Of a DNA stretch of 46,920 nt, positions 37,366 to 46,920 are shown one piece after another. Source of the DNA: an uncultured Burkholderiales bacterium (GTDB taxonomy: Bacteria; Pseudomonadota; Gammaproteobacteria; Burkholderiales; Thiobacillaceae). The notes below the pieces were generated by a model that had not been told where the DNA came from, did no database searches, and saw only the letters and a program-made list of their open reading frames with translations. The first letter of the stretch is position 1, and each line of letters starts with the position of its first letter. A program made the position numbers and the translations under genes. The DNA is taken from contig CALEDT010000036.1 of assembly GCA_937949525.1 (NCBI GenBank), positions 1 through 46,920 on the forward strand, in the 5' to 3' direction.

Positions 37366-37950
37366 ATGGGCGCACCACAACCGCAGCCGTCATTCGGCAT
37401 CGATGACTTCCTGACCTGGGAGGCGGAACAGCACGAACGCCACGAGTACCTCGCCGGCGAGGTGTTCGCGATGACCGGCGCGCGCGATGCGCACAACACC
37501 ATTGCTGGCAACGTGTTCGCCTGTTTGCGCAATGGCCTGCGCGGCGGCCCCTGCCGCGTGTTCATCGCCGACATGAAGCTGCGTGTGGATGCCGCCGACG
37601 CGGTGTTCTATCCGGATGTGCTGGTCACCTGCGACACCCGCGACCGCGCCCCGGAGTCCGACATGGCCAAGCGTTATCCCAGCCTGATCGTCGAGGTGTT
37701 GTCATCGTCCACCGCCGCCTACGACCGCGGCCTCAAGTTCGAACTGTATCGCCGCCTCGACACCCTGCGCGAGTATCTGCTGATCGAACAGGATCGGCGC
37801 CATGTCGATCTGTTCCGGCGCGAGGCCGACGGCCGCTGGCTGCTGCAATCCGTCGGCCCGGACGGCAGCATCGACCTGGACAGCGTCGCCACCCACATCG
37901 ACCTGCAGACGATCTACGAAGACGTGGATTTCTCCGCCGCGTCCGCCTGA
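37366..37950 (+). CDS. Uma2-family (DUF820) putative restriction-like nuclease
   Basis: 194 residues with the PD-(D/E)xK-like Uma2 fold. The N-terminal FGIDDFLTWEAEQHERHEYL and VFAMTGARDAHNTIAGNV are typical. Catalytic-type residues are seen as Asp in FYPDVLVTCD, Glu in LIVEVLSSST and a Lys two turns on in RGLKFELYRR. Function is unknown; a nuclease role is assumed from fold. GTG 37312 is an alternative start in overlap with the preceding gene. I prefer ATG 37366, with a modest ACGGA upstream and TATACT at 37333-37338. The 3' end overlaps the convergent epimerase gene by 37 bases. Confidence 0.82.
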   Translation: MGAPQPQPSFGIDDFLTWEAEQHERHEYLAGEVFAMTGARDAHNTIAGNVFACLRNGLRGGPCRVFIADMKLRVDAADAVFYPDVLVTCDTRDRAPESDMAKRYPSLIVEVLSSSTAAYDRGLKFELYRRLDTLREYLLIEQDRRHVDLFRREADGRWLLQSVGPDGSIDLDSVATHIDLQTIYEDVDFSAASA

Positions 37951-39785
37951 GGCTCAGCACGGTATTCCGGCAGCCAGGCGCGGATACGCGCGCGTACCTC
38001 GTCGTCGTCCGCCGCATCGGTGCGCGCGATCCAGTCGAGGAACTCGTCCACCACCCGCCCATCGGCGGCACGCGCGCGCGCCACGCGCAACTTGGGATGA
38101 GGCGTCGGCAGCGTCGATTCGCTGTCCGCCAGCAACTCCTCGTAGAGCTTCTCGCCCGGCCGCAGGCCGGTGAACTCGATGCGGATCTCCTCCTCGCGCT
38201 TGCCGGAAAGCCGGATCATCAGCCGCGCCAGATCGACGATGCGCACCGGCTCCCCCATGTCCAGCACGAAGATTTCCCCGCCCTGCCCCATCAACCCCGC
38301 CTGCAACACCAGTTGTGCCGCCTCGGGGATGGACATGAAATAGCGCGTGATCTCCGGATGGGTCACCGTGACCGGCCCCCCCGCCTCGATCTGCGCGCGG
38401 AACTTGGGAATCACGCTGCCGGAGGAACCCAGCACGTTGCCGAAGCGCACCGAGATGAACTGCGTGTGCGCCCCCGCCTCCCCCGCCTGCGCCTGCGCCT
38501 GCAACACCTGGCAGACCATTTCCGCCATGCGCTTGGACGCACCCATGACATTGGTGGGATTCACCGCCTTGTCGGTCGACACCATGACGAACTTCTCCAC
38601 CCCCGCGATGCGCGCCGCGCTGGCCAGCACCCAGGTGCCCAGGACGTTGTTGCGCAACGCCTGCAGGGCGTTTTCCTCCATCAGCGGCACGTGCTTGTAG
38701 GCGGCGGCGTGGTAGATCACGGCCGGCCGGTACCTGGACAGCACCTCCTCGACGCGGCGGGCATCCTGCACGCCACCGACCAGACGGACGATGCGCTGAC
38801 CGGGAAAATCGCGCTGGAACTCCTGCTCGAGACGGTATAGCGCAAACTCGCTCTGCTCGAACAGCAGCAGCAGCGAGGGCTTGAACTGCGCAATCTGCCG
38901 GCACAACTCCGAGCCGATGGACCCGCCCGCGCCGGTCACCATGACCACGCGCCGGCCCAGGCTTTCACTCAGCCCCGCACCGTCCAACCGCACCGGGTCG
39001 CGCCCGAGCAGGTCATCGAGTTCGATGGGCCGCAGTGCGGCGACCTGCACCCGCCCCTGCATCAGATCCTCCATGGACGGCACGGTCAGCAGGTTGAGGC
39101 CAAGGCCGGCGCATTCGTCCGCCAGCCGCGCGCGAACCGCGTGTGGCGCCGAAGGCAGCGCCAGGATCACGTCGCGCACCGACAACTGCTCCGCCAGCCG
39201 AGCGATGTCGCGCGTCGTGCCGAGCACCGGGATGCCCTGGATCAGGCGCCCCTGCTTGCCGGGTTCGTCGTCCAGCACGCCGACCGGCTGGTAGCCCGAA
39301 GGCGTGCGGTGCAGCTCGCGCAACAGGAAGTCCGCTGCCGAACCCGCACCCAGCACCAGCACCGGCCGGGTTTCCGCCAGCAATCCGGCCAACCGATGGT
39401 CCTTCCAGGCGCGATAGGCAAAGCGGCTGCCCCCCATCATCAGCACCAGCAGCAGCGGATCGAGCAACAGCACCGAACGCGGTACCACCGCCTCCACCCG
39501 GAACAGCACCAGGATCAGCGGCGTGGCCACCGCGGCGATGCCCACCGCCTTGAGGATGCGCTGCAGGTCCGGCAGGCTGGCGAAGCGCCAGATGCCCCGA
39601 TATAGCCCGAAGTACCAGAACAAACCGGCCTGCAACGGCAGCACCCAGAGCAACGTCGACAACGCCGCGGCCAAATACTCCCCCGGCAAGGCCAGATTGA
39701 AGCGCAGCCAGTACGCGCCCAGCCAAGCCGCGGCCGAAGCGGCGACATCGTGCAGCATGACCAGCAGGGACCGGTTAATCGGCAA
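37914..39785 (-). CDS. Membrane nucleotide-sugar 4,6-dehydratase/epimerase (WbpM/CapD-type)
   Basis: 623 residues. Four N-terminal transmembrane helices (about 10-120) precede a first Rossmann domain (LGAGSAADF, 145-153). The catalytic SDR domain follows, with TGAGGSIGSEL at 284-294 and the STDKAVNPTNVMGASKR motif. As with PglF and WbpM, it would convert UDP-GlcNAc to the 4-keto-6-deoxy intermediate used for bacillosamine or QuiNAc-type sugars. PglE/PglD-like enzymes in the cassette to the right would fit with that product. The start lies 11 bases inside the PNPT gene, and the 3' end overlaps the convergent Uma2 gene. Confidence 0.93.
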   Translation of the reverse strand: MPINRSLLVMLHDVAASAAAWLGAYWLRFNLALPGEYLAAALSTLLWVLPLQAGLFWYFGLYRGIWRFASLPDLQRILKAVGIAAVATPLILVLFRVEAVVPRSVLLLDPLLLVLMMGGSRFAYRAWKDHRLAGLLAETRPVLVLGAGSAADFLLRELHRTPSGYQPVGVLDDEPGKQGRLIQGIPVLGTTRDIARLAEQLSVRDVILALPSAPHAVRARLADECAGLGLNLLTVPSMEDLMQGRVQVAALRPIELDDLLGRDPVRLDGAGLSESLGRRVVMVTGAGGSIGSELCRQIAQFKPSLLLLFEQSEFALYRLEQEFQRDFPGQRIVRLVGGVQDARRVEEVLSRYRPAVIYHAAAYKHVPLMEENALQALRNNVLGTWVLASAARIAGVEKFVMVSTDKAVNPTNVMGASKRMAEMVCQVLQAQAQAGEAGAHTQFISVRFGNVLGSSGSVIPKFRAQIEAGGPVTVTHPEITRYFMSIPEAAQLVLQAGLMGQGGEIFVLDMGEPVRIVDLARLMIRLSGKREEEIRIEFTGLRPGEKLYEELLADSESTLPTPHPKLRVARARAADGRVVDEFLDWIARTDAADDDEVRARIRAWLPEYRAEPQADAAEKSTSS

Positions 39786-40734
39786 GATCGGACTCCTTCA
39801 CCCGACTGTCGATGGCCACCGTCAAGGCCAGATACCCGACCGCGACCGCCGCCAGGACGCCCCAGCGCCAGTCCGGCCACAGCGTCACGGCAAACGCGGC
39901 CGCGCCAGCACACGTCATCAACGCATACGCGGCGTACGCCAGGCGACGATGGCTCCAGCCGCCGCGCACCAGACGCTGGTAATAGTGCGTGCGATGGGCC
40001 CGCCAGATGCGTTCGCCACGCCGCAGGCGCGCCAACAGCGTGACGCTGGCATCGACGATGAACGGCGAGAACGCCAGCAGCGGCACGCTCCAGTGCCAGA
40101 CCTGCTGCAGGACACCCACGATGGCCAACGTCGCCGCGAGGAATCCCAGCGGGATGGACCCGGAATCACCCATGAACAGACGCGCCGGCGGAAAGTTGAA
40201 ACGCAGGAAGGCCAACGCCGCCAGCGCGACGGCAGCGCAATGGGCACCGAGCAACACCGCCTCGGCCATCCACGCAAGCAGCGCCAGCGTACCGAAGCCG
40301 ATCACCGCCATGCCGCCCGCGAGGCCGTCCGCGCCATCCATGAAGTTGTACAGATTGGTCATCCACACCACCGCCAGGACGGCGCCGAGCAGCGGCCAAC
40401 CGTCCAGCCCCAGGAACAGCAGGCATGCCGTCGCGACCGCCACGTGGGCCACCATACGCAGGCCGACCGGCAGGCCGCGCACGTCGTCCAGCAGGGACAG
40501 CGCGGCCAGAGCCAGGGCGGCCAGCATGACCGGGGCGAGAGCCGCGTCGGCGAGGATCGCCGTAGCCACTGCCACCCCGGCCATGATGCCCACACCGCCG
40601 ATGCGCGGCTTGGGCGCGACGTGCAGCGAACGTTCGTTGGGATGGTCCATGGGCAACAGCCGCTCCCGGCGCAACAACGCGGCCAGGGTCAACCAGCACA
40701 AACAGAAGGCGCAGGCGACGGCCAGTGCGGTCAT
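39775..40734 (-). CDS. Polyprenyl-phosphate sugar-1-phosphate transferase (WecA/WbpL-type)
   Basis: Polytopic initiating enzyme that loads a HexNAc-1-phosphate or related sugar on undecaprenyl phosphate. About 319 residues with some nine or ten hydrophobic helices. The Mg-binding loop has NLYNFMDGADGLAGG, and FMGDSGSIPLGFLAA is a second hallmark of the PNPT family. HPNERSLHVAPKPRIGG is the first cytoplasmic loop. I chose the ATG at 40734 because it overlaps the upstream stop (ATGA). This is the first of two different initiating transferases in the locus. Confidence 0.93.
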   Translation of the reverse strand: MTALAVACAFCLCWLTLAALLRRERLLPMDHPNERSLHVAPKPRIGGVGIMAGVAVATAILADAALAPVMLAALALAALSLLDDVRGLPVGLRMVAHVAVATACLLFLGLDGWPLLGAVLAVVWMTNLYNFMDGADGLAGGMAVIGFGTLALLAWMAEAVLLGAHCAAVALAALAFLRFNFPPARLFMGDSGSIPLGFLAATLAIVGVLQQVWHWSVPLLAFSPFIVDASVTLLARLRRGERIWRAHRTHYYQRLVRGGWSHRRLAYAAYALMTCAGAAAFAVTLWPDWRWGVLAAVAVGYLALTVAIDSRVKESDLAD

Positions 40735-41654
40735 GGCAGCTCGGCGCAGGTGGCAGCCAGCCCTTGCGCCAGCGTGTACGGCGGGCGCCACCCCAGTCGC
40801 GCGCGGATCAGCGAGGCATCCACCCACAACGACCCGGTCAGGCGCGCCACGGCGGCACGTCGGCCGACCAATGCCCCGGCCAGTGACAACACTCCCGGCG
40901 GCACGGCCAGCAGACGCGCCGGCCGATGCATCGCCTGCGCGATGGCCCGCACCAGATCCGGGGTGGAAACGGCGACACCGTCGTCGATCAGGAAAGTCTG
41001 CCCGGCAGCGTCAGGATGTTCCAGGCACAGCGCGATCGCATCGACGAAGTTATCCAGGTAGAGCAGGCTGCGGCGATTGTCGATGGCGCCCAGCGGCAAC
41101 GGCCAGCCACGCGCCACCAGGCGCAGCAGGGCGAGAAAATTCGCCTTGACGCCCGGACCATAGACCAGCGGCGGGCGCAACACGACGACCTCCAACCCGG
41201 TTTCGCCGGCGATGCGCCACAAGCCCTGTTCCGCCTCCCACTTGGAAATGGCATAGGCGTCTTGCGGTGCGGGTATATCGGCCTCGCGATACGGCGCGTC
41301 GCCTCCCTCGCCATTGACCTTGATGCTGCTGACGAACACGAAGCGGCGCACGCCCAGGCCGGCTGCCTGGCGCGCCAGATTCAACGTACCCTCGGTATTG
41401 GTGGCGCGATAGCGTGCGGCCGCATCCGGACCGTCTTGCATCCGGTGCACCCGGGCGGCGAGATGAACCACCGCCTCGCATCCGGTCAGGGCCGCGCGCC
41501 AATCGGTGCCAGCGTCGATGTCGCCGACCACCACGCCGTCGCCTGATCCCTCTGCGCGCCGCAACGCACGCACCGGCCCGTGCCCGCGGCTCACGAGCCG
41601 GGGACACAGCGCCGAGCCGACGAAACCGGTGGCACCCGTCACCAGCACCCTCAT
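40731..41654 (-). CDS. NAD-dependent sugar epimerase/dehydratase (SDR)
   Basis: 307 residues of the extended SDR type. The NAD loop is LVTGATGFVGSALCPRL near the N-terminus. VVHLAARVH, FVSSIKVNGE and the catalytic YAISKWEAE (YxxxK) follow, and VYGPGVKANFLALLRLV shapes the sugar pocket. It is close in style to GalE/WbpV-like 4-epimerases or 4-reductases of O-antigen loci. It does not look like RmlD. It overlaps both neighbours by four bases, so it is in one operon. Exact substrate is not clear. Confidence 0.88.
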   Translation of the reverse strand: MRVLVTGATGFVGSALCPRLVSRGHGPVRALRRAEGSGDGVVVGDIDAGTDWRAALTGCEAVVHLAARVHRMQDGPDAAARYRATNTEGTLNLARQAAGLGVRRFVFVSSIKVNGEGGDAPYREADIPAPQDAYAISKWEAEQGLWRIAGETGLEVVVLRPPLVYGPGVKANFLALLRLVARGWPLPLGAIDNRRSLLYLDNFVDAIALCLEHPDAAGQTFLIDDGVAVSTPDLVRAIAQAMHRPARLLAVPPGVLSLAGALVGRRAAVARLTGSLWVDASLIRARLGWRPPYTLAQGLAATCAELP

Positions 41655-42757
41655 GATGTCAGCGCTCCGTAGACCGCCAGCGTCTCGGCGATGACGATCT
41701 CCTGCGCGAACTCGGCCTCCGCGCGTTGCCGGGAGCGCGCACCCATGCGGCGGCGCAGCTCGGCGTCGGTGATGAGTCGACGCAGGGCGGCTGCCAGCGC
41801 CGTAGCATCACGCACCGGCACCAGCAGACCGTTGTCACCGTCACACACCACTTCGCGACATCCCGGCGCATCCGTCGCAACGATGGGCAGCCCGGTTGCC
41901 GCCGCCTCCAGCAGCGCCTTGGGCAAGCCTTCCCGGTAGGAGGGCAGACAAGCGACGTGCGCCAGCCGCCATACCGCAGGCATGTCATCGCGCCGTCCCC
42001 ACCACTCCACGCCATCACGCCCGTCCCAGGCAAGCAAGTCGGACTCCGTCAACGTGGCCGGATTGGCGGGATCGGGATCGCCCACCAACACAAAGCGCGC
42101 CTCGATACCCTGTGCCGCCAACCGCCGCGCCGCCATGACGAATTCGACCACCCCCTTGTCGCGCAACATCCGGGCAACCAGCATCACGCACGCCGGCCCC
42201 GCTGCCGGGTCGCCGGGCCGGAAGGCTTGCACATCCACCCCGGAACCGCGAATCAGGCGCAGGCACCGGTCACGCACGCCGGCGCGTTGCAGCATGGCCT
42301 GGTCCTCCGGGTTCTGCACGATGGTGATGCCACGCGAGCGATCGAGCAGCAACGCCAACGCGCGCCCGAGGAACGGCCTGGCCAGACGCGCCCAGCCATG
42401 TGCGGCGGTGAACAACCAGCCCAGGCCGGCGACCGCGTTGACCACCGCGCGGGTGCCCGCCAGCATGGCCGCGATGCTGCCGTAAACCACCGGCTTCAAA
42501 GCCACGTGATGGACGATATCGGGACGGACACGCCGATACAGGCGCCAAAGACTGAAGATTTCGGATAGCGGGTTGCCGCCGCGTCTGGACAGTTCCAGCG
42601 GGACGAGATCCAGTCCGGCGGCACGGATCGGTTCACTATGGCGATCGATACGGGTGGCCACGGTCACCTCGTAGCCCGCAGCGCGCGCCGCCACCGCCAG
42701 CGGCAAACGATGCGACACGAAATACCAGTCCTCGGTGACGACGAACAGCAGCCTCAT
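41651..42757 (-). CDS. GT4-family glycosyltransferase (asnB-adjacent, resident copy)
   Basis: GT-B enzyme of about 368 residues. It begins LLFVVTEDWYFVSHRLPLAV and has KPVVYGSIAAMLAG, a nucleotide-site [20 protein letters not shown] and SYREGLPKALLEAAATGLPI (EX7E). It resembles PglA/WbpH-type transferases. The ATG at 42757 overlaps the stop of an asnB remnant (ATGA), which shows the gene once followed a complete asnB. The 56-codon in-frame extension upstream is that remnant read in another frame, so I rejected it. It is related to the GT4 at 45497-46612 by domain style. Confidence 0.92.
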   Translation of the reverse strand: MRLLFVVTEDWYFVSHRLPLAVAARAAGYEVTVATRIDRHSEPIRAAGLDLVPLELSRRGGNPLSEIFSLWRLYRRVRPDIVHHVALKPVVYGSIAAMLAGTRAVVNAVAGLGWLFTAAHGWARLARPFLGRALALLLDRSRGITIVQNPEDQAMLQRAGVRDRCLRLIRGSGVDVQAFRPGDPAAGPACVMLVARMLRDKGVVEFVMAARRLAAQGIEARFVLVGDPDPANPATLTESDLLAWDGRDGVEWWGRRDDMPAVWRLAHVACLPSYREGLPKALLEAAATGLPIVATDAPGCREVVCDGDNGLLVPVRDATALAAALRRLITDAELRRRMGARSRQRAEAEFAQEIVIAETLAVYGALTS

Positions 42758-42851
42758 CGCGTCGCATCCAGCCACGCCTGCCACATCAACACGCCCCACA
42801 GGTGATACTGCCAGTTGCGTTGGCCCGAAAGGTGCTCCTGCCAGCGCCGGC
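42754..42851 (-). pseudogene. 3' remnant of asnB (asparagine synthase-like)
   Basis: Reading from 42851, the minus strand encodes [18 protein letters not shown] and ends in LMWQAWLDATR, then TGA. This aligns with the tail of the asnB gene at 46605-46920. Similarity stops abruptly at 42851. An in-frame TAA lies five codons upstream of the conserved RW, and no start exists. The TGA overlaps the ATG of the next glycosyltransferase. It is therefore a dead 3' fragment left at a recombination junction. The next 171 bases (42852-43022) contain no gene. Confidence 0.88.
42767..42851. repeat. Direct repeat, copy 1 (asnB 3' end)
   Basis: 85 bases that match 46627-46711 with four mismatches (about 95 percent) in the same orientation, offset by 3860 bases. 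It forms the left border of the lower-GC cassette. Confidence 0.92.
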
Positions 42852-43022
42852 CGTCGTTTTATGCGCGAGGGCAGAAGGATGGTGCTCCTTCCAGGCACGC
42901 AGATGGGATATTCATATCGAAACATAAAAACAATAGGCTTCTAGTCAAGTGACACTGACTGTCGAGATATCGTGGGCGACAATCAGCGCAACACGCCAAC
43001 TCACCTTCGTCAACCCCATTTT

Positions 43023-44255
43023 TCACCGTATCAAGGCTACCTGCATGATCTTCCTAATGGCGGTGACGATATCACGCATGTCCGCATCGCTAAGGGTCGG
43101 ATGGACAGGAAAGGCAAGGCTTGTTTCAGCCAAGGCATGAGCCATGGGCAAAGGTTGGGGTGGTGCCAAGCCAGCATCCATAAAGGCCTTTTCGCGATAG
43201 ATCTCACCACAGCTTCCCACGAAACAGGGTACCCCTTCAGCATTGATAGCTTCGATAATGCGATCCCTTGTCCAGCCTGGGTTCAGATATTCGGGCTTGA
43301 CGAAGACGTAGTAACGGTAGCGTGCATGGCCGATATGGGTGGGCACAGGGGTAATCCGCAAGCCGGGCACGTCGGCAATCGCTGACTCCAGGATCATGGC
43401 ATTGCGCTGTCTTATCGCCAGCCATGTAGGCAGTTTGGGCAACTGCCTGCGACCAATCACCGCTTGAATCTCGGTCATGCGCCAGTTGGTGCCGAACGAT
43501 GTATGCAGCCAGCGGAAACCCAATGGGTGATCGCGGCAGTGGACGGCATCCCAATCTTTGCCATGATCCTTATAGGACCAAGCCCGTTTCCACGCTGCCT
43601 TATCCCGAAGAAGTAACATACCACCTTCGCCACCCGTGCTGATGATCTTGTCTTGGCAAAAAGAAAAAGCCGCCGCGTCACCAAAGCTGCCCACAGGCCT
43701 TCCCTTATAGGTAGCACCATGTGCCTGGGCACAATCCTCGATTAGTTTCAGGCCCTGAGCCTGAACCAGATCCAGAATGGGGTTCATCTCACAAGACCAA
43801 CCCGCCAGATGTACGACAATGATTGCCCGCGTGCGGGGTGAGAGAACGGCTTCGATGCTACTGGCCGTGATGTTCTGACTAACGGGATCGACGTCAGCCA
43901 GGACAGGACGCGCGCCACGTGCAACGATACAACTTGCAGATGCAATGAAAGTTCGCGGGCTAGTGATTACCTCATCGCCGGGACCAATACCCAAGGCATA
44001 AAGAGCAAGCTCCAATGCTACGGTGCCGTTCATTAGTGCAATCGCATAAGGCATACCGCAGTATTCGGCAAACTCACCCTCGAATTTTCGGCACTCTTCA
44101 CCGGTCCAGTAGTTGACTTTCCCGGATGACAGCACAGTGGAGGCTGCCTCGATCTCGTCCGTTTCGTAACGAGGCCAAGGCGGGAAAGGCGTTTGGCGAA
44201 CCGGCACCCCTCCTTCGATGGCCAGGACTTCGAAAAGATCTTTCTTGGGATTCAT
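43023..44255 (-). CDS. DegT/DnrJ/EryC1/StrS-family sugar aminotransferase
   Basis: PLP enzyme that should aminate a keto-sugar nucleotide. The catalytic lysine is K203 in FSFCQDKIISTGGEGG. VNYWTGEECRKFE, ALMNGTVALELALYAL and IEDCAQAHGATYKG are family marks. About 410 residues. I chose the ATG at 44255; the in-frame extension to 44366 is shadow sequence from the neighbouring acyltransferase. It lies four bases after that gene. With the 4,6-dehydratase at 37914 it could make a UDP-4-amino-6-deoxy-HexNAc, as PglE does. The substrate is inferred. Confidence 0.93.
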   Translation of the reverse strand: MNPKKDLFEVLAIEGGVPVRQTPFPPWPRYETDEIEAASTVLSSGKVNYWTGEECRKFEGEFAEYCGMPYAIALMNGTVALELALYALGIGPGDEVITSPRTFIASASCIVARGARPVLADVDPVSQNITASSIEAVLSPRTRAIIVVHLAGWSCEMNPILDLVQAQGLKLIEDCAQAHGATYKGRPVGSFGDAAAFSFCQDKIISTGGEGGMLLLRDKAAWKRAWSYKDHGKDWDAVHCRDHPLGFRWLHTSFGTNWRMTEIQAVIGRRQLPKLPTWLAIRQRNAMILESAIADVPGLRITPVPTHIGHARYRYYVFVKPEYLNPGWTRDRIIEAINAEGVPCFVGSCGEIYREKAFMDAGLAPPQPLPMAHALAETSLAFPVHPTLSDADMRDIVTAIRKIMQVALIR

Positions 44256-44259
44256 GACG

Positions 44260-44886
44260 CTATCCGATTGCTCGTGCCGGAACGCCAGCCACTCGCAGGC
44301 CATCCGCAATATCTTCACGAACCACGGAACCTGCGCCCACCACGACGTGGGCGCCAATCCGTACACCCGGAATGATCACCGAACCAGCTCCTATCAACGT
44401 GCCTTGCCCTATGGTCACATTGCCGCACAGGTGGCAGCCAGGAGCCACGTGCACTGCATTCCCCAACACGCAATCATGGTCTACGGTAGAACCAGTATTG
44501 ATGATCACTGCCTCTCCTATTGAGCTGTCGGGATTCAAGACTGCACCTGCTGCGATAAAACTGCCCGGGCCAATGTCACAACCCCGCCCTATGCAAGCAG
44601 CGGGATGAATCACTGTGGTCAGGGCGAACCCATTTTTTTGCAGCCAGGCACTGACTTCCGATCGTGCAGCATTGTGACCAATTGCGGCAATGGCTTCCGG
44701 ATAGGGCCTATTTCGTTCGAGAAGGGCAGATCGGCCACCAATCACCTGATAACCGAAAAAATCCTGACCGCGCAGTTCTGGACGGTCATCTGCGAGGGAG
44801 ATGGCCATGCGGCTTCCAGCTCGCTCCAATGCGTCGATGACCACCTTCGCGTGTCCGCCCGCACCAAAAACAATGATCTCCCTCAT
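44260..44886 (-). CDS. NeuD/PglD-type sugar O/N-acyltransferase
   Basis: Left-handed beta-helix acetyltransferase of 208 residues. The N-terminal Rossmann-like part reads EIIVFGAGGHAKVVIDALE. Hexapeptide repeats run from about 95 to 200 (IGRGCDIGPGSF, IGEAVIINTGSTVDHDCVLG). The catalytic His is H137. The fold matches PglD, which acetylates UDP-4-amino sugars, and NeuD. The start overlaps the sugar-transferase stop. Together with the aminotransferase it would complete an acetamido-sugar donor. The acyl donor could be another CoA ester. Confidence 0.93.
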   Translation of the reverse strand: MREIIVFGAGGHAKVVIDALERAGSRMAISLADDRPELRGQDFFGYQVIGGRSALLERNRPYPEAIAAIGHNAARSEVSAWLQKNGFALTTVIHPAACIGRGCDIGPGSFIAAGAVLNPDSSIGEAVIINTGSTVDHDCVLGNAVHVAPGCHLCGNVTIGQGTLIGAGSVIIPGVRIGAHVVVGAGSVVREDIADGLRVAGVPARAIG

Positions 44887-45497
44887 GTAACACGATCCTT
44901 TTCAGGGTCTGTGCTCCCGGTAAATTTTGGCATGGTAACGTGCCCGGGATGGCTTATCCCCTTGCGATGAAAGACCTGGACCACGGTTAAAACGAGGATC
45001 TCGAGGTCTAGTGCCAGGCTCTGGTGTTCCACATACCATACGTCATGTTCAAATCGCTCCTCCCAGCTTGTGGCATTGCGTCCATTGACCTGCGCCCAGC
45101 CCGTGATGCCTGGCCTGACTTCATGCCGCCGTGCCTGACGTTCAGTATAAAGAGGTAAGTATTCCATCAGCAGGGGACGAGGACCGACTAAACTCATATC
45201 TCCTCTTATGACATTCCACAGCTCAGGCAGCTCATCCAGGCTTGTAGCACGGAGAAAGCGGCCAAATCGAGTCAACCGTTGTTCGTCTGGAAGCAGTTGC
45301 CCGTGTTCGTCGCGAGTATCTGACATGGTACGGAATTTAATTAATGTAAACGGGCGTCCATGCATCCCGGGACGCGTCTGCCGAAACAAGACTGGACTGC
45401 CAAGTAATATCCGCACTAGCAGTGCAATGACGAACAACAAGGGTGCTAGCAGCAACAGCGCTATTATTGCTAGTACAAGGTCCAGAAAGCGTTTCAT
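44883..45497 (-). CDS. PglC/WcaJ-type initiating sugar transferase
   Basis: Monotopic phosphoglycosyl transferase of 204 residues with one N-terminal hydrophobic re-entrant helix (about 5-28). Signature motifs are TLIKFRTM, the catalytic DE in TSLDELPELWNV, LVGPRPLL and RPGITGWAQVNGRN. It would transfer a sugar-1-phosphate from a UDP sugar to undecaprenyl phosphate. It overlaps the upstream GT4 by one base and the acyltransferase by four. It duplicates in role the WecA-type enzyme at 39775-40734, though the two families are unrelated. Confidence 0.95.
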   Translation of the reverse strand: MKRFLDLVLAIIALLLLAPLLFVIALLVRILLGSPVLFRQTRPGMHGRPFTLIKFRTMSDTRDEHGQLLPDEQRLTRFGRFLRATSLDELPELWNVIRGDMSLVGPRPLLMEYLPLYTERQARRHEVRPGITGWAQVNGRNATSWEERFEHDVWYVEHQSLALDLEILVLTVVQVFHRKGISHPGHVTMPKFTGSTDPEKDRVT

Positions 45498-46612
45498 CAG
45501 GCAAGCCCCATCGTGCGCAGAATCACTGTATTGACTTCACGCACGTCGAAACGTGACTCGGCAATCCGCCGGCTTGCGCTACCCATAACAGACACTTGAT
45601 CCGAGGATTCAATAAAACGAACCATCGCCTCTGCCAATGCCGCCGCGTTCTTGGCCGGAACCAAAAATCCATTTTCTCCATCGACTACGGTTTCGCGGCA
45701 GCCCGGTCTATCCGTGGTGATGATAGGCCGGCTCATGGCCATTGCCTCCAATACTGTCCGTGGCATACCCTCATGATAGGAAGGTAGGACGTAAACATTG
45801 CAACTGGCAATTGCTGAGCGAACATCTTCGAGCCGGCCAAGATATTCGATGACACCTTCACGGATCCATCCATCAAGGTCTTTTTGGGAAATCGCAGCTG
45901 GATTTTCATCGATCCATCCGACCAAGAGAAATCTCGCTTGGGGATACTCGGCTTTGACCATCCTCGCTGCCTCGACATATTCCACGACCCCCTTGTCTCG
46001 CAATAGACGCGCAATCATCAAGAAACTGGGTATCTTAGGCAAGGCCACAGGAGCAAAATGTTCCAAATCCACACCTGTACCGTTGATCAATACTGCCTGT
46101 TCAGGTCGGGCCACAAGCCTAAGTTTGAGGAACAACTGCATATCGTCCGGGTTCTGAAAAAAAACCCGCGCGGAGCCGCGCAAAGCGAGGCGGTAAAGGC
46201 CCCGTGCGACGGTACCCACAATGCATCCACGCAGGCCAGTGGCAGTGAAGGTATAACCCAGGCCTGTAATCATAGGGTAGCACCGATAAACACCCGCCCA
46301 ACGAGCAGCCAGACAGCCATAAATCACCGGCTTGATCGTGTATGCAAGCAAGCAATTGGGACGAATGGAACGAAACAGACTGCGCAGAAAGAGGAGGCTC
46401 CTCAAATCCTGCAACGGGTTAAGACTCGTACGCGCCAATGGCACTGCGTGATAACGGACTCCGAGCGCGGACAGTTGCGCAATCAAGTGAGAATCGGCAG
46501 GCGGTGCCAAGGCATGCACTTCATGACCGGCATCCACCATGGCTTTCAATAGGGGACCACGGAAGTTGATTAAAGATTCAGGCAAACTGCCCAGCACCGC
46601 CACCCTAGCCAT
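45497..46612 (-). CDS. GT4-family glycosyltransferase (PglA-like, cassette copy)
   Basis: GT-B enzyme of 371 residues. [20 protein letters not shown] opens the protein. [34 protein letters not shown] and [20 protein letters not shown] (EX7E) follow. It matches PglA-like transferases that add the second sugar to a lipid carrier. The ATG at 46612 lies within the last codons of asnB, so the two are coupled. The other GT4 (42757) occupies the same place after the asnB remnant, which suggests equivalent genes from two loci. Confidence 0.92.
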
Positions 46613-46920
46613 ATCGGTACCCCTCCTCCAGCCACGCCTGCCACATCAGCACATCCCACAGGTGATACTGCCAGTTGCGCTGGCCCGAAAGGTGCTCCTG
46701 CCAGCGCCGGCGGATCGGCGCTGGATCGAGGAAGCCTTCACGCTTGAGCCTATCTTCCGCGAGCAGATCCTCGGCCCAATCCCGCAAGGGGCCACGCAGC
46801 CAGTGATCGAGGGGCACGCCAAACCCCATCTTCGGTCGCTCGATCAGCTCGCGCGGCACATAGCGGTAGAGCACCTGGCGCAGCAGCCACTTGCCCTGAC
46901 TGTTACGGATTTTCATGGAA
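46605..46920 (-). CDS. asnB: Asparagine synthase-like amidotransferase, C-terminal end only
   Basis: The frame is open to the right edge, so about 104 C-terminal residues are visible. It reads [18 protein letters not shown], then [14 protein letters not shown], and ends with [14 protein letters not shown]. These are characteristic of the C-terminal synthetase domain of class-B asparagine synthetases, many of which sit in glycan loci (WbpS-like) and amidate sugar acids. The gene starts outside the window. Its last 85 coding bases are repeated at 42767-42851. Confidence 0.92.
46627..46711. repeat. Direct repeat, copy 2 (asnB 3' end, intact)
   Basis: Partner of 42767-42851. It is in frame with asnB and ends 22 bases before the stop. 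It forms the right border of the lower-GC cassette. Confidence 0.92.

Follow-up and report, generated by a model that had tools for sequence, protein, structure and literature searches.

Several described systems come close to the locus analysed here. Published homology-facilitated illegitimate recombination is reported, in the sections of the account cited, to involve a general loss of recipient DNA and microhomology of mostly 3-10 bp (PMC3240628). In the gene-tail displacement of Vibrio T6SS loci, as it is summarised, a module is added at a conserved upstream anchor, and what previously lay downstream persists as an immunity gene array (PMC5361080). Salmonella galactose-initiated O-antigen clusters carry wzy remnants, described in passages of that work as left by inter-cluster recombination (PMC3715488), and at the Salmonella Typhimurium wzy locus a surface-polysaccharide gene block lies between identical 113-bp direct repeats (attL/attR), with reversible excision and an observed 2,558-bp deletion according to the extracts cited (PMC12074656). 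As to gene content, the counterpart is the Campylobacter-type bacillosamine route (PglF, PglE, PglD, PglC, PglA).

The locus lies at the end of the window, i.e. the whole 46,920-nt stretch of DNA that was analysed. It appears that this Thiobacillus-like bacterium gained four sugar-making genes, set into the tail of a resident gene. In the reading that we hold to be probable, a four-gene glycan module was acquired into the resident operon asnB-GT4-epimerase-PNPT-PglF, anchored in asnB, and the end of asnB was duplicated at the far junction. As in the Vibrio case, there would be a conserved upstream anchor, an added module and a preserved downstream part, here the operon and an 85-bp stub instead of an immunity gene array; as in the O-antigen clusters, a gene remnant is left, but the change here is additive and the remnant duplicates part of a gene which has been retained.

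The first-pass annotation had pointed to an 85-base repeat of asnB with four mismatches, and it was re-found: two copies in the same orientation at 42767-42851 and 46627-46711, 3,860 bp apart, identical at 81 of 85 positions (exact runs of 31, 25, 3 and 22 bp), with a likeness that breaks off sharply at both borders. Judged from the sequences, this agreement exceeds chance by far: the best foreign match, in the loci fetched at that stage, was 70/85 for the right copy and 68/85 for the left one. The left copy (minus strand, as are all the genes given below) is indeed a dead asnB 3' end: an in-frame stop lies immediately upstream, no start codon is found between this stop and the repeat, and the TGA of the stub and the ATG of the resident GT4 share bases in an ATGA (42754-42757). 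The right copy stands within the 3' end of asnB (46605-46920; Asn_synthase domain, PF00733 positions 256-354). Of the presumed live frame said to end there and to overlap a second GT4, 104 codons can be seen, open up to the contig end at 46920 (209 bp past the repeat); their stop shares 8 nt with the beginning of the cassette GT4 (46605-46612). When PF00733 and PF13537 were run against the own genome, no fitting frame emerged for the missing 5' part; contig C22 carries a single short PF00733 match (positions 19-77) and no GATase_7 match.

Between the two copies lie four genes whose products, by sequence, are of the types of PglA, PglC, PglD and Pcryo_0638, which belong to the diacetylbacillosamine route. 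The one next to asnB is a predicted PglA-like GT4 glycosyltransferase (45497-46612; Pfam Glyco_trans_1_4), with the diNAcBac-PP-undecaprenol GalNAc transferase 8dqd as its best PDB match (E 4.8e-42). It is followed by a small PglC-like sugar-phosphate transferase (44883-45497; PF02397, best PDB match 8g1n, E 2.3e-68), a NeuD/PglD-type sugar N-acetyltransferase (44260-44886; TIGR03570 over its cut-off, PglD_N, PDB 4ea7, 4m98 and 3bss) and a DegT-family sugar 4-aminotransferase (43023-44255; best PDB match 7l7x, E 6.4e-137). Then comes a low-GC (0.49) stretch of 171 bp without recognised gene (42852-43022), which ends at the asnB stub; when considered as a remnant of the next donor gene, it gave no significant match among the fetched loci (best blastn E 0.086). 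Of the genes called for by an N,N'-diacetylbacillosamine module, the PglC-type phosphoglycosyl transferase (8g1n), the PglD-type N-acetyltransferase (TIGR03570, PglD_N) and the 4-aminotransferase (7l7x, Pcryo_0638) are thus recognised in the cassette, and the PglF-type UDP-GlcNAc 4,6-dehydratase outside of it, at 37914-39785 (PDB 5bju, i.e. WlaL, E 2.1e-89). WlaL is also known as PglF. The best or near-best solved relatives are those of the Campylobacter-type route (WlaL, PglC, PglA, PglD/PglB-type acetyltransferases), with two differences: the dehydratase is not grouped with the others, and the aminotransferase is nearest to Pcryo_0638, not to PglE. These two aminotransferases are described, in the portion of the study cited, as binding the same substrate differently (PMC8040287).

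The cassette is compositionally foreign, a conclusion supported by both GC and GC3. As the first-pass annotation had noticed, its genes are lower in GC (GT4 0.54, PglC 0.52, NeuD 0.57, aminotransferase 0.55) than window positions 1-42754 (0.67), and the comparison of codon usage that it proposed reveals the same step: GC3 is 0.52-0.58 in the cassette genes and 0.80, 0.81 and 0.88 in the resident GT4, epimerase and dehydratase. It had also proposed that the foreign block began with its own asnB fragment. A foreign origin is supported for the four cassette genes, but not for the asnB part: the right asnB end has a resident-like GC3 of 0.80, and both repeat copies share a rare W (LMWQAW), where foreign ends have F in 65 of 72 cases and W in four. 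Either the asnB of the donor hardly differed from that of the recipient, or one copy derives from the resident gene.

Downstream of the stub are the resident GT4 (41651-42757; best named relatives Thiobacillus, 70-71%), an NAD-dependent epimerase/reductase (40731-41654; PF01370), a polyprenyl-phosphate sugar-phosphate transferase of the PNPT/WecA type (39775-40734; PF00953, TIGR02380 below its cut-off) and the dehydratase. This asnB-GT4-epimerase-PNPT-dehydratase order, without the cassette, is common in relatives. Relatives numbered 225; in the best 80 of them, all named loci, asnB was found upstream of GT4 in 51, either adjacent (35 loci, gap of -5 to 131 bp) or interrupted (16 loci); 22 others had no asnB in the fetched upstream DNA and seven had under 3 kb upstream. 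The gene order postulated earlier for the resident locus is thus found in relatives, and the asnB/GT4 border is a place where differing genes occur inserted (16/51 loci). None of the 16 loci with other inserts had an asnB stub within 600 bp of GT4 (83 loci scanned, 600 bp upstream); one match, in L081, was rejected as being that locus's own asnB, 225 bp away. In a tree of asnB ends (matches under 88 aa and identical copies left out), the right asnB end clusters with the asnB sequences from G129, G183, G056 and a Nitrospira bin (98/92, with few columns and a bootstrap that is not settled). The resident-type GT4s of G129 and G183 are only 55-57% identical, as against 70-71% for the best Thiobacillus bins, so that asnB and GT4 have differing histories; this, together with the resident-like GC3 of the right asnB end, counts against the acquisition as we formulate it.

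Related modules were sought in 399 genomes drawn from the order, of which 51 (own included) matched at E 1e-60, and 29 foreign loci were examined. The GT4-PglC-NeuD order was present in four of them, from other families (L164, L165, L166 and L168). One other genome, G414 (L193), from another family of the order, has the intact unit AT-NeuD-PglC-GT4-asnB. There, asnB and GT4 are about 20 bp apart; since asnB stands close before GT4 in G414, the asnB/GT4 overlap on the right side looks native. The sister-strain comparison suggested by the first-pass annotation was carried out with other species, among which the cassette-free order was common and the asnB-GT-PglC-NeuD-AT unit was seen once. In the own genus, the aminotransferase was found at 65-66% identity in two of 22 other genomes (G003 and G006) and at 38% in G016. 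The G003 and G006 blocks match the cassette in three genes and in their order (PglC-NeuD-AT, 53-66% identical), but are directly followed by a dehydratase and are higher in GC (0.57-0.67 for these genes); neither cassette-type GT4 nor asnB was detected in the 20 kb fetched. Six other members of the genus have GT4s up to 48% identical to that of the cassette, in two cases beside asnB (G002 and G021). The module type is therefore not alien to the genus, which weighs against an acquisition, and the G003/G006 blocks indicate that the PglC, NeuD and aminotransferase genes are tied to a PglF-type enzyme. Also unfavourable is the absence of a close donor among the genomes searched, the best identities being 66% (aminotransferase), 60% (NeuD), 70% (PglC) and 56% (GT4). 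A DNA similarity search for a plasmid carrier gave 130 records, all at 60-80% identity and none covering 80% of the query. The matches listed in the literature searches, in most cases a small part of all matches, included no published account of this locus.

The dehydratase deserves a separate comment. It is the one strong PF02719 match of the genome (403.6 bits; 20.9-52.9 for seven others). It is 72-73% identical to that of the G003/G006 blocks and 62-70% identical in the closest loci of cassette-free type. Its status as resident is consequently less certain than that of GT4, another point against the acquisition as we formulate it.

If the acquisition took place, the incoming DNA would probably have carried the module (PglA-like GT4, PglC, PglD-type acetyltransferase and sugar aminotransferase) behind a closely related asnB. 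On one side, its asnB would have paired with resident asnB; on the other, the join would have fallen, without homology, within the terminal 85 bp of resident asnB. A single asnB would remain, with the module after it, and the old GT4 would be preceded by a dead asnB end of 85 bp that preserves the overlapping start region of this gene. The module would probably make and prime N,N'-diacetylbacillosamine or a closely similar sugar; the 4-keto sugar for this would come from the resident PglF dehydratase, which would also feed the old epimerase/PNPT branch. The homology end of homology-facilitated illegitimate recombination would correspond to asnB, the shared sequence, with a crossover side that runs off the contig. 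Neither microhomology nor loss of recipient DNA is seen when 42851/42852 is compared with the right copy, which also pleads against the acquisition as we formulate it. The recombination put forward earlier is partly supported, by the foreign cassette, the cassette-free order, the donor-type unit of G414, the lack of asnB stubs near GT4 in the 16 loci with other inserts and a join that would restore the frame; support is wanting as regards a foreign asnB fragment.

The repeat could have been generated in other ways. A module devoid of asnB may have been inserted in the resident asnB end, 85 bp of target being copied by repair or replication and the four differences arising later, mostly in the dead copy. 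We find this unlikely, even though the rare W in both copies and the resident-like GC3 of the right one are in its favour. With four related asnB ends as reference, the left copy appears to have the derived state at three of the four differences (L115 disagrees at one), including a D to G change at a site occupied by D or N in 55 of the 72 foreign ends; but at the fourth difference it is the right copy that has the derived state, and G is found at that D/N site in 5/72 foreign ends. The overlap of the right asnB stop with the cassette GT4 start is moreover in the style of a native operon, and asnB is close before such a GT4 elsewhere. Target duplications made by transposases are generally shorter than 85 bp. 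Neither a recombinase gene nor a border inverted repeat above chance was found: none reached 25 bp, and the best short one (10 bp with two mismatches) was equalled in 86 of 100 shuffles. A transposon or integron cassette was rejected on the same grounds (no recombinase gene, no terminal inverted repeats at the borders); all four genes of the cassette are, moreover, glycan genes.

Assembly is another conceivable source, the contig joining the asnB-GT4 allele and the asnB-cassette allele of two co-occurring strains. The contig end inside asnB, 209 bp past the right repeat, the lack of a fitting 5' part in the assembly and the fact that most of the 80 named relatives (best 80 of 225) are, by title, metagenome bins would go along with such an artefact. 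At 42851/42852, however, an unmatched junction, an assembler would have found no common sequence by which to pass from one copy to the other, and the left copy is truncated to 85 bp, with 171 bp of unmatched sequence before it; the genome is listed with a completeness of 100 and a contamination of 0.06, and we consider a chimera quite improbable. It is hardly credible that the 3' end of asnB served an integrase-type element as its attachment site: direct repeats do flank the cassette, as the attL/attR-named 113-bp repeats do in the Salmonella extracts (PMC12074656), and asnB stays in frame through the right copy, but the four genes in between are glycan genes and the 16 loci with other inserts are devoid of an asnB repeat within 600 bp of GT4.

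To come back to the acquisition that we favour, its reversal was also proposed by the first-pass annotation. From the sequence, deletion of the cassette by recombination between the two copies is conceivable: their joining would leave asnB in frame, with the ATGA overlap at its end. On the other side, the longest exact run is of 31 bp and no cassette-free allele is present in this assembly. The arrangement is akin to that of the Salmonella wzy locus, where short direct repeats likewise enclose genes for a surface polysaccharide, but the repeats are here of 85 bp with four mismatches and no deletion was seen in the assembly. A more elaborate picture, which we regard as doubtful, is that the asnB/GT4 border acts as a plug-in point and the cassette as a 'half-pathway' operating on the resident PglF dehydratase, providing a second lipid-linked priming route, and that the 85-bp stub makes the gain reversible, letting populations switch between two surface glycans.

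To conclude, the locus would have been caught after the addition of a module and before the scar was erased. The mechanism is of a known kind, and the case a clear but fairly ordinary remodelling of bacterial surface sugars; it suggests how a newly arrived module can rely on one enzyme that was already present.

The four cassette genes, all on the reverse strand (GT4, 45497..46612; PglC, 44883..45497; NeuD, 44260..44886; aminotransferase, 43023..44255), lie between two asnB-derived 85-bp repeats in the same orientation (right copy, 46627-46711; left copy, 42767-42851), which, as first reported from inspection, are identical at 81 of 85 positions and 3,860 bp apart. Exact runs within the repeat are of 31, 25, 3 and 22 bp, and similarity is sharply lost at both borders. 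The copies are nearest each other, the next best of the asnB ends fetched by then being at 70/85 (right copy) and 68/85 (left copy). Both encode LMWQAW; at the W site, foreign asnB ends have F in 65 cases out of 72 and W in four. By this mutual closeness and the shared rare W, both copies stem from one recent asnB lineage. The right copy terminates an open frame of 104 codons running off the contig; nothing in the assembly (2.68 Mb, 64 contigs, rated 100% complete) fitted as its 5' part. Contig C36, which is the entire window, stops at 46920 inside asnB, perhaps a strain-variable spot. The left copy was confirmed to be a dead stub: an in-frame stop precedes it, and its own stop and the start of the resident GT4 (41651..42757, reverse strand) overlap. 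Upstream of that start, the GT4 frame continues without a stop as far as an ATG at 42925 (42758-42925, reverse strand; 424 aa), with possibly 56 extra residues that read the stub in another frame. Alignments with relatives begin at residue 1-3 of the shorter protein, which starts at 42757, so gene callers may assign a wrong start.

The lower GC of the cassette held in 500-bp windows: its mean was 0.542 (33 windows, maximum 0.570) versus 0.674 ± 0.040 (s.d.) over 1-42700 (422 overlapping windows, minimum 0.554), so that the ranges touch slightly. GC3 was 0.52-0.58 for the four cassette genes, 0.80-0.88 for the three resident genes measured and 0.80 for the right asnB end, which places the right-hand composition step at the end of asnB and not within its visible part.

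The best named relatives of the resident GT4 are in Thiobacillus and related metagenome bins. Among 80 named loci around such relatives (best 80 of 225), 51 have asnB upstream on the same strand, 22 lack it in the upstream DNA that was fetched, and for 7 the upstream sequence is shorter than 3 kb. asnB adjoins GT4 in 35 of the 51 (gap of -5 to 131 bp) and is 225-3,237 bp away in 16; all 15 separations above 800 bp had a GC below that of the neighbouring GT4. A Pfam scan of 10 of the 24 proteins listed for these inserts gave two AAA_14-DUF4143 proteins (L053:7807-9012 and L083:8805-9995, from a Thiobacillus bin and a Sulfuricellaceae bin), three LPG_synthase_TM proteins with Wzy_C (O-antigen ligase; L057:7783-9999, L065:1871-3742, L077:7785-9986), one UDP-sugar dehydrogenase, one epimerase and three without Pfam match. 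No asnB stub was detected within 600 bp of GT4 in the 16 interrupted loci. The expected cassette-free order is therefore widespread and its border often interrupted, the stub being so far particular to this genome.

Of 399 genomes drawn from the order, 51, among them the own genome, matched the cassette GT4 with an E value of 1e-60 or better. Four of 29 foreign loci examined (L164, L165, L166 and L168) have GT4-PglC-NeuD in the window's order. In one of these genomes, G414 (from another family), asnB precedes GT4 by about 20 bp and the whole AT-NeuD-PglC-GT4-asnB block (AT, aminotransferase; L193) is present, so a donor-type block does exist elsewhere. In four loci (L201, L202, L203, L204) a dehydratase follows the aminotransferase on the same strand. 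Within the genus (22 other genomes), the aminotransferase was matched at E 1e-60 in G006 (66%), G003 (65%) and G016 (38%). G006 (L240:7663-11989) and G003 (L241:8078-12395) have PglC-NeuD-AT-dehydratase in a row (identities of 65%, 53-60%, 63-66% and 72-73%, respectively); the 20 kb retrieved from each showed neither a cassette-type GT4 nor asnB. Matches to the cassette GT4 at E 1e-40, with at most 48% identity (G009), come from six further members of the genus, and in G021 and G002 such a gene (38-39%) comes after asnB. Parts of the module therefore circulate in and around the genus, the direct donor lying outside the sampled genomes. The first-pass annotation, which had a foreign asnB'-GT-pglC-neuD-aminotransferase block recombining into a resident asnB-GT-epimerase-PNPT-dehydratase locus, was largely right, being supported by the low GC, the cassette-free relatives and the G414 block; that the asnB' part is foreign is not supported, as the right asnB end has a resident-like GC3.

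A scheme in which a single homologous event would have occurred within asnB on one side, and a non-homologous join downstream on the other, explains the borders; it would require donor and resident asnB ends to share about 95% identity. Such a combination is described as homology-facilitated illegitimate recombination (PMC3240628), and for Vibrio T6SS loci a comparable route has been put forward (PMC5361080). The main rival is that the repeat was produced by a target duplication made during insertion. With four related asnB ends as reference, the stub carries the derived state at three of the four differing sites (one end, L115, dissents at one of them) and the right copy at the fourth, a split that favours neither illegitimate recombination nor target duplication. 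Joining the flanks in silico at the repeat gives an in-frame asnB ending in DATR with an ATGA overlap with GT4, so cassette deletion would bring back a plausible ancestral operon. Deletion between repeats is documented for Salmonella wzy, where these are 113 bp long and identical, unlike the 81/85 found here; against the minimal lengths quoted there, 23-27 bp (RecBC) and 44-90 bp (RecF) (PMC12074656), the 31-bp exact run is marginal.

The nearest structures are PglA for the cassette GT4 and PglC for the small sugar-phosphate transferase; for the acetyltransferase they are perosamine acetyltransferase, PglD entries and a Neisseria-type pilin-glycosylation protein. The aminotransferase is nearest to 7l7x. 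That structure is of Pcryo_0638, which uses the same substrate as PglE, in a step on the way to UDP-2,4-diacetamido-2,4,6-trideoxy-D-glucose (PMC8040287). The first enzyme of the route is outside the cassette, a WlaL/PglF-type dehydratase (37914..39785, reverse strand; PF02719, 403.6 bits); as the seven other PF02719 matches over cut-off in the genome are at 20.9-52.9 bits, the module appears to depend on it. The neighbouring epimerase (40731..41654) and PNPT (39775..40734), both on the reverse strand, would draw on the same 4-keto sugar as the module. The dehydratase, at 72-73% identity to those of the G003 and G006 blocks versus 62-70% in the closest GT4-epimerase-PNPT-type loci, may itself have a mixed history. 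The locus illustrates, in well-preserved form, how a polysaccharide operon gains a module, and does not represent a new kind of system.
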